Source of the DNA: an uncultured SAR116 cluster alpha proteobacterium
GTDB taxonomy: Bacteria; Pseudomonadota; Alphaproteobacteria; Puniceispirillales; Marisalimonadaceae
Assembly (NCBI GenBank): GCA_902595145.1
Contig: CACJOU010000010.1
Span: 1 to 45,021 of the forward strand
Direction of reading: 5' to 3'
DNA: 45,021 bases
Shown here: piece by piece, positions 39,926-43,774 of the stretch
Layout of the letters: every line of letters starts with the position of its first letter
Position numbering within the stretch: position 1 is the first letter of the stretch
Notes under the pieces: model-generated
Databases searched by the model: none
Seen by the model: only the letters and a program-made list of their open reading frames with translations
Told to the model about the DNA's origin: nothing
Program-made: the position numbers and the translations under genes

Positions 39926-39977
39926 AATAATTTTAAATATTAGGTCTTGAAAAAAAGATTTTCAACATTAAATAACA

Positions 39978-40003
39978 CTTGTGATGCCATAATGGGTCAT
40001 AAT
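39978..40003 (+). promoter_or_regulatory. Possible heat-shock (sigma-32-type) promoter of the Hsp20 gene
   Basis: CTTGTG (39978-39983) is separated by 14 bases from CATAAT (39998-40003). This partly matches the sigma-32 pattern CTTGAA...CCCATnT. Transcription would start around 40010, just before the first stem of the RNA thermometer candidate. Confidence 0.35.
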
Positions 40004-40012
40004 TTATAAAAT

Positions 40013-40066
40013 AACATCGCCATTATTGGGATGTTGAAAATTAACTCGCTTTATAAGGAGATAAAA
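40013..40066 (+). promoter_or_regulatory. ROSE-like RNA thermometer in the Hsp20 leader
   Basis: Two hairpins fill the leader. The first pairs AACATC (40013-40018) plus CCA with TGG plus GATGTT (to 40035), with one bulged G and a 4-base loop. The second pairs CTC-G-CTT (40045-40051) with AAGGAG (40055-40060), with G48 bulged and a 3-base loop, so the whole Shine-Dalgarno sequence is masked. UCGCU opposite AGGA with an unpaired G is the hallmark of ROSE elements in alphaproteobacterial small heat-shock genes, which melt on warming and permit translation. Confidence 0.75.
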
Positions 40067-40489
40067 ATGACTATTTTACCAACTCTTGCTTTAAGATCAT
40101 TTGTAGGTTTTGACAACCTTTTTAATGAATTAGAAAGCATTTCTAACCAAAAACAAAGTTCTTTTCCTGCTCACGATATAATTAGAATATCAGATGATGA
40201 GTATGAAATTACATTAGCTGTTTCAGGCTTTAATAAAAAAGACTTAAGTATTGATGTCCACGATGGTGTTCTTACAATTAAGGGAAATGGTGGATCTGAA
40301 GTTCAAGACGATAGCTTGCAATATATATATAAGGGTATTGCAAAAAGATCTTTTGAACAAAAATTTAGATTAGAACAATACGTAGATGTTAAAGAAGCCA
40401 AATTGTCTAATGGTTTATTAACTGTGTCACTTCTAAGAGAAGTGCCAGAAGAGAGAAAGCCAAGACAAATAACTCTAAAAACTGCTTAA
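40067..40489 (+). CDS. Small heat-shock protein, Hsp20/IbpA family
   Basis: This 140-residue chaperone holds unfolding proteins under heat stress. Residues about 34-125 form the alpha-crystallin domain with VSGFNKKDLSIDVHDGVLTI and the hallmark AKLSNGLLTVSLLREVPE (about 111-128); an I-x-L-type motif (ITL, 135-137) near the C-terminus suits oligomer contacts. ATG at 40067 is chosen over the ATG at 40031 because AAGGAG at 40055-40060 lies six bases upstream and the shorter form matches the family start. Expression is probably controlled by the leader RNA structure at 40013-40060. Confidence 0.93.
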   Translation: MTILPTLALRSFVGFDNLFNELESISNQKQSSFPAHDIIRISDDEYEITLAVSGFNKKDLSIDVHDGVLTIKGNGGSEVQDDSLQYIYKGIAKRSFEQKFRLEQYVDVKEAKLSNGLLTVSLLREVPEERKPRQITLKTA

Positions 40490-40498
40490 TTAACTTTG

Positions 40499-40527
40499 GG
40501 TTAGGGCACATGCCCTAACCTTCATTT
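40499..40527 (+). terminator. Intrinsic terminator after the Hsp20 gene
   Basis: GGTTAGGGCA (40499-40508) and TGCCCTAACC (40511-40520) form a perfect 10-bp stem (the innermost pairs probably open to give a 4-6 base loop), followed by TTCATTT. It lies 10 bp after the Hsp20 stop codon. Confidence 0.75.
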
Positions 40528-40543
40528 CAAGGTATAATTAATA

Positions 40544-40762
40544 ATGGAATTCTTATTAATATGGGTATTAGGAAATGATGTAATTGATAGTGGTCTTAGA
40601 TATAAGAATGCTGCAAAATGTTTTTCAGAATCCCAAAATGCCGCTGCTGAAATGAGGGAAGTTGGTCTCTCTGCACCAAAATTCACATGTTTGCCAGTTT
40701 CGAAAGGTAAAGAATTTAAAATATATAGAAATAATGACCAAAGTCCTAGATTTCCATTTTAG
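40544..40762 (+). CDS. Hypothetical protein (72 aa)
   Basis: This 72-residue protein is not recognised. It starts with a short hydrophobic stretch (MEFLLIWVLGND), too short for a membrane helix, then a helix-rich middle (NAAKCFSESQNAAAEMREVG) with two cysteines in the whole protein and a C-terminal basic stretch. An AAGG ribosome site lies at 40529-40532, 11 bases upstream of ATG. It follows the Hsp20 terminator, so it needs its own promoter or read-through, and is convergent with another small hypothetical gene. It could be spurious. Confidence 0.5.
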   Translation: MEFLLIWVLGNDVIDSGLRYKNAAKCFSESQNAAAEMREVGLSAPKFTCLPVSKGKEFKIYRNNDQSPRFPF

Positions 40763-41062: not shown

Positions 41063-42016
41063 ATGAAAGTTATAAAAATATTAATTTTATCCGTGATATC
41101 TGCATTTTTTTCAAGCGCAGTTTTATCAGAAACAAGAATAACTTATAAATCAGCAAAATCCACTTCATCTTATTACCAGATGGCTGTGCAAATTGCCGAT
41201 ACTATGAAAAAATCAACTAATGGCAAAATGATTTTGACTATTGAAGAAAGTCAAGGCTCTGTTCAAAATGTAAAAGAAGTTGCAGCAAGGACTGGAAATT
41301 ATGTATTTACTACACCGCCTGTCTTAGTGAAATTAGCTATAGCAGAAAAAGCTATGTTTAAGGGGAAAGGTAATCCCAACTATAAAAACATAAGAGCTTT
41401 GTTTCCAATTCCTTCCTTAACAATGCATTTTGTTATGTCAAAGAAGTCAGGCGTAAAAAATTTTTCAGACATGGCTGGTAAAACAATATTATTAGGAAAG
41501 GGATCTTTTGGAGCTAAAGAAGGTGCAAAATATATTAAAAAATTTGGTTTAGAAGGAAAAGTTAAATTAGCTCAAGTAGAACTTTCTAACGCTGTGCCAG
41601 CTCTTAAGAATGGACAAATTGATGGATTTGTTACAGCTGGCTCTTATCCAGCCCCTAATGTTATAGAAGCTGCGGCGTCTATGGGAGTGAATGTAATATC
41701 CCTTACAGATGATCAAATTAAATCATTTAAAAGAACAAAACTAACAATACCCTCCGGCACCTATAAAGGTCAAAATAGTGATATTACAACAACTTCATTG
41801 CCAGTTGTTGCATATGCTACAACAAATATGAGCAAAGACGTAGCCTATAATCTTACTAAAGCTTATTGGGAAAATAAAGGCAAATTGGGAGAAGCTGCAA
41901 AGTGGTGGAATGGAGTAACTCCTGAAATGATATCTAATGTATCAACTAAAGTACACTCAGGTGCAGTGAAGTATTACGAAGAAAGAGGGGTAAAGTTGGC
42001 AGATCATCATAAATAA
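41063..42016 (+). CDS. TRAP transporter solute receptor, TAXI family
   Basis: This 317-residue periplasmic binding protein belongs to the TAXI group of TRAP transporters. A signal peptide occupies residues 1-22 (core IKILILSVISAFFSSAVLS). The mature part starts TRITYKSAKSTSSYYQMAVQ and contains GKTILLGKGSFGAKEGAKYI and VPALKNGQIDGFVTAGSYP, typical TAXI segments. A strong GGGAGGA ribosome site (41051-41057) precedes ATG. It is followed 6 bp later by the fused permease gene. The ligand is unknown; characterised family members bind compounds such as glutamate. Confidence 0.92.
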   Translation: MKVIKILILSVISAFFSSAVLSETRITYKSAKSTSSYYQMAVQIADTMKKSTNGKMILTIEESQGSVQNVKEVAARTGNYVFTTPPVLVKLAIAEKAMFKGKGNPNYKNIRALFPIPSLTMHFVMSKKSGVKNFSDMAGKTILLGKGSFGAKEGAKYIKKFGLEGKVKLAQVELSNAVPALKNGQIDGFVTAGSYPAPNVIEAAASMGVNVISLTDDQIKSFKRTKLTIPSGTYKGQNSDITTTSLPVVAYATTNMSKDVAYNLTKAYWENKGKLGEAAKWWNGVTPEMISNVSTKVHSGAVKYYEERGVKLADHHK

Positions 42017-42022
42017 TATTAT

Positions 42023-43774
42023 ATGACGCTTAATTATAAAATGTGGATTGTCTTTGGGTTTATTTCTATAGCCTTCCACATTTACCTTATTTTTTCTGGA
42101 TTAGTTCCTAATTTAATTTCAAGGCCATTACATTTTGCTTTAATTTTGCCTTGGATTTTCCTTTATAATAATGGAACAAAATTTCAATTTTTAATTAACG
42201 TTTCCATTGTCATTACAGGAATAACATCATGTCTATATATTGCCATTTTTTCAAATCAGTTAATGGATCAATATGGATTTTTAGAAAATAAATTTCAATT
42301 AATTGTCTCTTTAATATTAATTTTAATTGTATTAGATGCTGCAAGAAGATCAGTAGGATGGCCGCTGCCTATTGTAAGTTTTTTAGCGTTATTATATGGA
42401 GTTTTTGGAGAACATATACCTGGTGAGTTTGGTCATCCAGGACTGCCTTTAAATAGCTTTTTGGGAACACTTACAATTGCTGAAGGTGGGTTATGGGGCC
42501 CGTTAACGGGTGTTTCTGTGTCTATAGTGTCAATATTTGTTATATTTGGCTCTTTTTTAAATTCTGGTGAAGCTGGTTCAGGTTTCATGAATATTGCAAC
42601 CGCTTTTGCAGGAAAATTAAAAGGAGGAGCTGCAAAAGTTTCAGTAATTTCATCTGCTCTTTTTGGTTCTATTTCAGGTTCAGCATCTGCAAATGTTGCT
42701 TCTACCGGTATGGTCACCTTGCCAGCAATGATAAAGTTAAACTATCCTAAGAGGTTGGCTGCATCTGTAGAGGCTGTAGCATCTTCAGGAGGTCAGATTA
42801 TGCCACCCTTAATGGGTGCAGGTGCATTTGTAATGGTAGAATTAACTGGCGTCCCATATGATAAAATTATTATTGCGGCTCTTTTGCCAGCTATTCTTTT
42901 CTTTTTTGCAGTTTGGGTTGGCATTAATTTTTATTGTAAAATTTATAATTTAAAACCAATGAAAAAAGATAATCTACCAGATATTAGGACAGTAATTATA
43001 ACTTCATTATTTTTTTTAATTCCGTTTTCAATATTACTTTCTCTAATGTTTTCGGGTTTTACGCCTCAATATTCTGCTTCAATATCAATATTAGCCGCAT
43101 TTATATTACTATTTTTTAATATAAAAAATATTTTTAATTTTCAGTTAGGTGCAAGTAGATTTTTTGAAGCTTGTGTTGCTTCTGGGCGTCAGATTTCTCT
43201 AATAGGTTCAATAATAATATGTGCTTCAATTATAATTGGTGTTTTGTCAATGACAGGTTTAGGAGTAAAACTTACTTCTTTAATTATATCTTTATCAGAT
43301 AATAATATTTGGCCTGCATTAATTTTAACTGGCATTGCTTGCTTGTTATTAGGTATGGAGGTACCTACTACTGCAGCTTATGTAATATGTGTTTCTGTAG
43401 CTGGTCCAGCTTTGGTTGACATGGGACTTGAGCTTCTCCAAGTTCATTTATTTGTGTTTTGGTTTGCTTTATTGTCAACCATTACACCACCTGTTTGTGG
43501 AACAGTTTTTATTGCTTCAGGAATGGTGTCTGAAAACTGGTTAAAAGTTTCTTTGACATCAATGAGTCTAGGAATCGGATTATACTTTATTCCATTAGCG
43601 ATGATAGCAAACGAAGCAATAATTAAAATAAACGCTGATTTTATTTCATCATTAGTAGCGTTTGTTAAGATTGCTTTAAGTTTGGTTATGCTGTCTTATG
43701 CTTTTATCAGTAATAACTTAATTATATACAAAATAATGGCATTTTGTTTAGGTATGTTTGTAATGTTTTTATAA
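42023..43774 (+). CDS. TRAP transporter fused permease (4TM-12TM)
   Basis: This 583-residue inner-membrane protein is the sodium-driven permease partner of the TAXI receptor. The small (DctQ-like) and large (DctM-like) subunits are fused, the usual form for TAXI systems. Hydrophobic helices run through the whole length. The core contains GSISGSASANVASTGMVTLP and EAVASSGGQIMPPLMGAGAF, the family's conserved transport motifs, and GMEVPTTAAYVICV in the second half. It starts 6 bp after the receptor gene. It is convergent with the methyltransferase gene, 1 bp apart. Confidence 0.93.
   Translation: MTLNYKMWIVFGFISIAFHIYLIFSGLVPNLISRPLHFALILPWIFLYNNGTKFQFLINVSIVITGITSCLYIAIFSNQLMDQYGFLENKFQLIVSLILILIVLDAARRSVGWPLPIVSFLALLYGVFGEHIPGEFGHPGLPLNSFLGTLTIAEGGLWGPLTGVSVSIVSIFVIFGSFLNSGEAGSGFMNIATAFAGKLKGGAAKVSVISSALFGSISGSASANVASTGMVTLPAMIKLNYPKRLAASVEAVASSGGQIMPPLMGAGAFVMVELTGVPYDKIIIAALLPAILFFFAVWVGINFYCKIYNLKPMKKDNLPDIRTVIITSLFFLIPFSILLSLMFSGFTPQYSASISILAAFILLFFNIKNIFNFQLGASRFFEACVASGRQISLIGSIIICASIIIGVLSMTGLGVKLTSLIISLSDNNIWPALILTGIACLLLGMEVPTTAAYVICVSVAGPALVDMGLELLQVHLFVFWFALLSTITPPVCGTVFIASGMVSENWLKVSLTSMSLGIGLYFIPLAMIANEAIIKINADFISSLVAFVKIALSLVMLSYAFISNNLIIYKIMAFCLGMFVMFL

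Follow-up and report, generated by a model that had tools for sequence, protein, structure and literature searches.

Comparative evidence for a three-hairpin, ROSE-like leader and probable RNA thermometer upstream of an IbpA-type hsp20 gene in the SAR116 cluster

The window—the whole stretch of 45,021 nucleotides that was analyzed—carries an hsp20 gene of the IbpA type, which is directly preceded by a structured leader and a promoter-like signal (Table 1). Among the NCBIfam models, the IbpA model is closest to the encoded protein (E 1e-34), at 119.5 bits against a cut-off of 212, which is not reached. Of 35 loci from named genomes, 30 bear an hsp20 with 71–99% identity, 22 of these 30 being labeled SAR116 and 8 being more generally named; the window is accordingly assigned to a bacterium of the SAR116 cluster. 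Directly 3' of hsp20, a strong hairpin, GGTTAGGGCA-CA-TGCCCTAACC, is found at 40499–40520, and similar ones follow hsp20 in several relatives. Further downstream lie a small ORF of 72 aa (40544–40762) with no Pfam match at E ≤ 0.001, to which a similar stretch can be seen by eye in several relatives, and, at 41063–43774, genes for an NMT1-like periplasmic binding protein and then a DctM-type transporter subunit (TRAP/TAXI type).

Table 1. Features of the hsp20 leader and gene, in window coordinates
Feature	Coordinates	Strand	Description
Putative sigma-32-like heat-shock promoter	39946–39973	+	−35 CTTGAAA 39946–39952, 13-nt spacer, −10 CATTAAAT 39966–39973
Hairpin 1 (missed in the earlier note)	39979–40002	+	stem UUGUGAU/GUCAUAA, bulged G39986, CC(A)/(U)GG
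Hairpin 2	40013–40035	+	AACAUC/GAUGUU, bulged G40019, CCA/UGG
Hairpin 3, presumed thermosensor	40045–40060	+	anti-SD CUC-G-CUU against whole SD AAGGAG, G40048 bulged
Shine–Dalgarno (SD) AAGGAG	40055–40060	+	6 nt before hsp20 ATG; assigned from sequence
hsp20, IbpA-type small heat shock protein	40067–40489	+	140 aa; PF00011 E 2.0e-17, over cut-off

The earlier note on this DNA had described two hairpins, and both are found as drawn. The nine pairs of hairpin 2 are formed by AACATC (40013–40018) with GATGTT (40030–40035) and by CCA (40020–40022) with TGG (40027–40029), with G40019 as the single bulge. Hairpin 3 indeed pairs the complete AAGGAG, CTC (40045–40047) facing GAG (40058–40060) and CTT (40049–40051) facing AAG (40055–40057), while G40048 is left unpaired. 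The proposed minimal length of about 50 nt does not hold, as a third conserved hairpin at 39979–40002, behind the promoter-like signal, extends the element to about 82–88 nt. Because hairpin 1 adds this upstream length, the leader would be of ordinary ROSE size, counted from the putative transcript start. Within the 1.42-Mb genome of origin (72% complete), the pattern CTYGCTTN{2,8}AGGAG matches only once—in this leader—and a reversed control pattern not at all.

Two further sequence features of the leader were considered. An in-frame ATG inside hairpin 2 (40031–40066) might cause gene-finding programs to call a protein of 152 aa. In our family alignment—the window and 30 further leaders in one MAFFT alignment (n = 31)—an ATG stands at this place in 2 of the 31 leaders, and in 21 of the 31 the final 36 nt are free of in-frame stops. 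An 11-bp inverted repeat (ATTTTCAACAT at 39958–39968 and ATGTTGAAAAT at 40031–40041) was rejected as a competitor of hairpin 2: the promoter contains its left arm, and relatives, e.g., L011, do not preserve the repeat.

The distribution of the anti-SD motif was followed in 110 hsp20 leaders, made up of 30 returned loci and 80 further places taken from a longer match list, whose other places were left out. The pattern UYGCU...AGGA is present in 88 of these 110, versus 42 of 11000 shuffles. Among the 22 leaders without it, 19 show no SD recognized by our script and belong to more distant hsp20s (32–46% identical); for six of these (L059, L063, L065, L067, L109, and L110), the gene is the only hsp20 found in its genome. 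In the other three, the motif is altered (L037 and L054) or the leader is cut by a contig end (L052). The script found neither an SD nor a ROSE motif before the distant hsp20s L108–L111, L050, L053, L059, and L062–L068, and in L108–L111 the hsp20 start lies, by eye, directly behind the stop of another reading frame. A related assembly with 5% contamination holds a further hsp20 (L107, G029:C3), whose apparent two-hairpin ROSE-like leader stands behind a promoter-like site, CTTGAAAA.

The earlier note had made its reading depend on a transcript that does not start downstream of 40045. A promoter-like signal at 39946–39973, upstream of all hairpins, points to a start at about 39979–39981 and, thus, to a leader of about 86–88 nt. 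The −10 element in the window is poor when set against the E. coli sigma-32 consensus. In another family of the order, locus L041 has the same spacing, CTTGAAA-N13-CCCCATAT, which is near that consensus, with hairpin 1 equally distant; the corresponding −10 places read CCCCATAT in L042 and CCCTATAT in L043, and the distance to hairpin 1 is again the same. All family leaders but L026 (30 of 31) contain CTTGA or ATTGA. Among the 88 leaders that carry the anti-SD motif, 15 contain neither within 150 nt, and some matches of this simple scan are not promoters. The promoter is overlapped by a perfect inverted repeat, TTGAAAA-N5-TTTTCAA (39947–39965)—perhaps a regulator site—whose form TTGA-N11-TCAA is retained in several relatives, e.g., L015, L021, and L037.

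The pairing itself is borne out by compensatory changes. Across the 31 family leaders, 96.0% of 742 cells (one pair in one leader) are standard pairs, and two-sided change is seen in 11 of 24 pairs, amounting to 77 cells. Sliding the partner by one to three columns leaves at most 48.4% of cells paired, 6 pairs with two-sided change and 15 two-sided cells, a comparison that in cells paired is itself favorable to the drawn structure, which was drawn from the same 31 sequences. None of 500 shuffles reaches the observed pairing, the number of two-sided cells or the covariation score. The counts of two-sided pairs and of pair types discriminate less because shuffles do reach them (58 and 8 of 500, respectively). 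RNAalifold, unaided, returns the same three hairpins with one end pair different. The three hairpins differ in how the changes are distributed. In hairpin 1, seven of nine counted pairs change on both sides, the most of the three, and the two pairs at its outer end are not formed in 16 and 9 of the 31 leaders. In hairpin 2, 99.3% of cells are paired and four of nine pairs change on both sides. Hairpin 3, with 99.5% of cells paired and one pair failing in one leader, has no two-sided change because its 3' arm is the SD.

The behavior of hairpin 1 bears on the notion of a minimal ROSE of about 50 nt, in which only two hairpins would be transcribed and the upstream hairpin would lie outside the transcript. 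Two-hairpin ROSE elements do exist: the Pseudomonas ibpA leaders, with 61–62 nt and two hairpins, were shown to function in 2013 (PMC3669281), so that the earlier note's interest in a ROSE with only two hairpins is outdated as well, and the leader of L107 in the related assembly G029, before another hsp20, is apparently of this form. Yet it is hairpin 1 that carries the most two-sided changes, and it begins at the expected sigma-32 transcript start; we consider the two-hairpin reading very unlikely.

A second family of 16 leaders, chosen for a hairpin 1 visible by eye and aligned apart, gives a similar result: 96.7% of 367 cells are paired, and 7 of 23 pairs change on both sides (28 cells), versus at most 53.8% of cells, 3 pairs, and 5 two-sided cells in the slid versions. 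Seven of 500 shuffles reach seven two-sided pairs, and none reaches 28 two-sided cells. Leaders with other upstream hairpins, e.g., L038, L044, L058, and L060, were left out of this alignment. Conserved pairing in related leaders, on which the earlier note had staked its reading, is thus borne out by compensatory changes in both the 31 and the 16 leaders.

A covariance model built from the 31 family leaders was run on 136 genomes of the order and has a match at E ≤ 1 in 59 of them and none in 77, the 31 strongest matches being the training leaders. A further 22 genomes of the order, outside the family, match at E < 0.02, and in 20 of these the match ends at most 5 nt from an hsp20 start codon. 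In the remaining two, the match either lies at a contig edge, where hsp20 is uncheckable (G101), or ends tens of bases upstream (G075). Genomes that bear hsp20 and are without a match (e.g., G087, G112, and G124) are in keeping with their different upstream hairpins. Applied to a set of 84 loci, the model yields 32 matches at E ≤ 5. It finds neither the RF00435-like leaders L076, L078, L089, and L097 nor the E. coli ibpA leader, and therefore describes a local variety. Its sole match in the E. coli K-12 sequence L179 is weak (L179:2401–2480, minus strand; 14.4 bits, E 0.097) and ends 2 nt before the start of ibpB, not ibpA. A second match in the genome of origin (G000:C4, 21.7 bits, E 0.48) lies by eye inside a reading frame and was dropped. 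When the search was widened to 337 genomes of the class, it gave ten matches at E ≤ 0.1 beyond the order, of which five stand before hsp20, one before rpoH, and four in terminators or coding sequence, as judged by eye except for rpoH. A pattern search across the class hit 102 of 385 genomes, and many were hit by the reversed-pattern controls, too; two of its rows lie before rpoH (G338 and G229).

The Rfam covariance search that the earlier note had suggested gave nothing over cut-off: RF00435, RF01832 (ROSE_2), and RF02523 (ROSE_3)—the last of which represents the short Pseudomonas ibpA ROSE-like thermometers—were each run on 151 genomes, and none of these exceeds the cut-off of any of the three. 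For the window, the scores are 13.8 bits with ROSE_3 (cut-off 43) and 13.3 bits with ROSE_2 (cut-off 65), with RF00435 unlisted, and in a scan of 11 related loci none is over cut-off. Of the three models, ROSE_2 alone exceeds its cut-off among 14 control genomes (in a single one), which leaves RF00435 and ROSE_3 without a positive control there; the E. coli ibpA control reaches 100.4 bits for ROSE_2. Matches below cut-off do fall on the hsp20 leader, e.g., in G029 (25.0 bits, ROSE_2) and G086 (28.6 bits, ROSE_3), and four more distant alphaproteobacterial leaders score 27–31 bits for RF00435. The lack of an Rfam match over cut-off would fit an ordinary leader with chance hairpins and no regulation, as would the folding z of the 88-nt leader, which is only −2.27—a modest value, with 6 of 200 shuffles folding equally well or better. 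However, the compensatory changes in two sequence sets are strong counter-evidence, and the model found the hsp20 leader in genomes outside its training, which makes chance hairpins a very improbable explanation.

In PMC3669281, PMC11342760, and PMC10474464, the ROSE-like class is described by a U(U/C)GCU stretch that pairs imperfectly with the SD and leaves a bulged G, and by melting of this SD hairpin, through which warming increases translation; PMC10474464 gives a 5'UTR of 60 to over 100 nt with two to four stem–loops. In the window, a UYGCU-type core with a bulged G is paired imperfectly to the SD beside the start codon, and three hairpins span 39979–40060, a size within that range for the putative transcript start. 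A small heat shock gene—the typical, not obligatory, context—stands by its position directly behind the leader that presumably controls it. The element, hence, carries the sequence features of the ROSE-like class as given in these papers, yet by score it is no member of an Rfam family.

Comparison with individual systems gives a mixed picture. Rhizobial ROSE (RF00435) is also found before a small heat shock gene, has the UYGCU–SD pairing with bulged G, and its model likewise begins with a hairpin of the form stem-bulge-CC-loop-GG; in contrast, the present leader is AT-rich, has three hairpins and a much shorter SD hairpin, and remains below the cut-off of that model. With Pseudomonas ibpA it shares a short SD hairpin that reaches barely beyond the core and a stable hairpin upstream, but it has three hairpins and about 88 nt instead of 61–62 nt. 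The E. coli ibpA leader (ROSE_2, RF01832) has the CUCGCU...AGGAG core and an IbpA-type gene in common with it, whereas the upstream hairpins are unlike by eye. ROSE-G (PMC12857270) resembles it in the bulged G of the anti-SD strand. What marks ROSE-G, namely CUGCU facing another bulged G on the SD side, is not found here: the core is UCGCU, and all AAGGAG bases are paired.

Taken together, the earlier proposal of a ROSE-type element before hsp20 is sustained by motif, gene context, compensatory changes, and the presence of the same leader in relatives. The leader is very probably a three-hairpin, ROSE-like translational RNA thermometer acting on an IbpA-type gene; judged from sequence, it would be a real but largely expected RNA thermometer, with a presumed temperature response. 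It is proposed that the heat-shock promoter starts the mRNA at about 39979–39981 and provides heat-induced transcription, to which the leader would add translational control. At low temperature, hairpin 3 would hide the whole SD in a short stem weakened by the bulged G. Upon warming, hairpin 3 would open first and allow ribosomes to start hsp20, whereas hairpins 1 and 2 most likely fold first, prevent misfolding of the leader, and protect its 5' end. Hairpin 3 is expected to open first because it is the weakest predicted stem: the energies at 37 °C are −6.0, −10.0, and −2.2 kcal/mol for hairpins 1, 2, and 3. The melting step is proposed because ROSE elements tested elsewhere melt in this way (PMC3669281).

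The predicted SD openness in ViennaRNA rises slowly, from 0.07 at 15 °C to 0.18 at 37 °C and 0.31 at 50 °C, a series that serves as description only because the program misjudges a known ROSE control, the E. coli ibpA leader, whose openness falls with warming. With the same reservation as to this control, omission of the bulged G lowers the predicted openness at 37 °C from 0.18 to 0.06. For the transcript with 18 nt of coding sequence, a best fold with the complete set of hairpins is predicted at only two of nine temperatures, 25 and 30 °C; other pairings take the place of hairpin 3 at 4–20 °C and of hairpin 1 at 37–50 °C. From 37 °C upward, the start codon is predicted to pair with the 3' arm of hairpin 1; this pairing was rejected, since by eye it is without counterpart in L031 and L032.

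All three hairpins share one core, stem-Y-G-C-Y-loop-R-G-R-stem, in which the first G is unpaired. This bulged G is retained in hairpins 1, 2, and 3 in 31, 30, and 31 of the 31 family leaders—while neighboring pairs change—and in 16, 16, and 15 of the 16 leaders of the second family. A scan upstream of the anti-SD motif, with leaders cut 4 nt before the motif and C-G required as the first pair past the bulge, finds a bulged-G hairpin in 75 of 88 leaders from 25 of 28 genera (genus labels copied by hand, with L107 counted in its genus; a label of its own would give 26 of 29), and at least two such hairpins in 46 leaders. The same scan with an A, C, or T bulge gives 3 of 88 each, and shuffles give 2–3% for every bulge. 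Without the C-G requirement, bulges of G, A, C, and T are found in 82, 32, 19, and 12 of 88, a contrast that is smaller but stays. These counts are not independent because the leaders are related, 31 of the 88 belonging to one family. In some leaders (L057 and L069), the SD hairpin is almost duplicated by the upstream one.

The bulged G of the SD hairpin is named in the literature, e.g., in the ROSE-G work (PMC12857270), and the function of the upstream ROSE hairpins is described as incompletely understood in PMC3669281, in which the word bulge does not occur. A discussion of an upstream bulged-G core was not found in the literature searched, made up mostly of non-subscription papers later than the older ROSE work. 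That the upstream hairpins share the bulged-G core of the thermosensor appears to be new. A speculative and rather doubtful interpretation is that these hairpins mimic the thermosensor—with their Y-G-C-Y/R-G-R core and near-invariant bulged G—as a repeated recognition unit. Its ligand would most likely be the small heat shock protein, or else a different regulator, and the leader would then read both temperature and free chaperone.

A related possibility shifts the weight away from melting: the leader might be mainly a binding site for Hsp20, which when free would repress its own translation and in heat would be titrated by unfolded proteins, with the melting of hairpin 3 being additional or secondary. 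E. coli IbpA binds the ibpA 5'UTR and represses its own translation, for which Arg93 is needed (PMC10474464), and an Arg occupies the corresponding alignment position in all 88 Hsp20s whose leaders carry the anti-SD motif; the repeated bulged-G core, too, resembles a repeated recognition unit. However, 17 of the 22 Hsp20s lacking the motif have this Arg as well, so that it is not diagnostic, and E. coli ibpA itself is by eye without bulged-G upstream hairpins. We hold a leader that is mainly a binding site to be possible but on balance improbable; autoregulation by Hsp20 as such is compatible with the thermometer reading.

Leaders with the same core also occur before another heat-shock gene. 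Three ROSE-like two-hairpin leaders with bulged-G cores (L190, L191, and L192, in G338, G469, and G229, respectively) stand directly before rpoH. In a survey of four genomes of one alphaproteobacterial family, three close matches (62–100% identical) and, in the fourth, only a distant one were obtained; the rpoH leaders of all three close matches have CTTGCTT...AGGAG ahead of the start codon and, further upstream, a hairpin with a bulged G. The 31-leader model found one of these three (G338, ending 3 nt before the start) and not the other two. For the RpoH-type sigma factor of G338, the best NCBIfam model is sigma-32 (E 2.1e-56), with 191.5 bits versus a cut-off of 241 on a stretch of 150 aa. 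The rpoH thermometer of E. coli is of another kind. A ROSE element before rpoH is not mentioned in the titles and abstract openings of the papers listed, a part of those matching.

For the SAR116 cluster, a search of mostly non-subscription literature for RNA thermometers returned a single paper, by its title about hydrothermal vents, and searches of the same literature for Puniceispirillum with thermometer and for SAR116 with small heat shock protein returned none. The leader described here extends ROSE-like thermometers, by comparative evidence, to this cluster of AT-rich ocean bacteria, in which the Rfam ROSE models have 0 of 151 genomes over cut-off, and the 31-leader model offers a way of finding such SAR116 leaders. 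The shared core, whose bulge is retained while flanking pairs change, makes the question of the upstream hairpins testable by simple mutants. If these hairpins do mimic the thermosensor, the RNA code would extend, in the one family with this arrangement before rpoH, to control of the heat-shock sigma factor.
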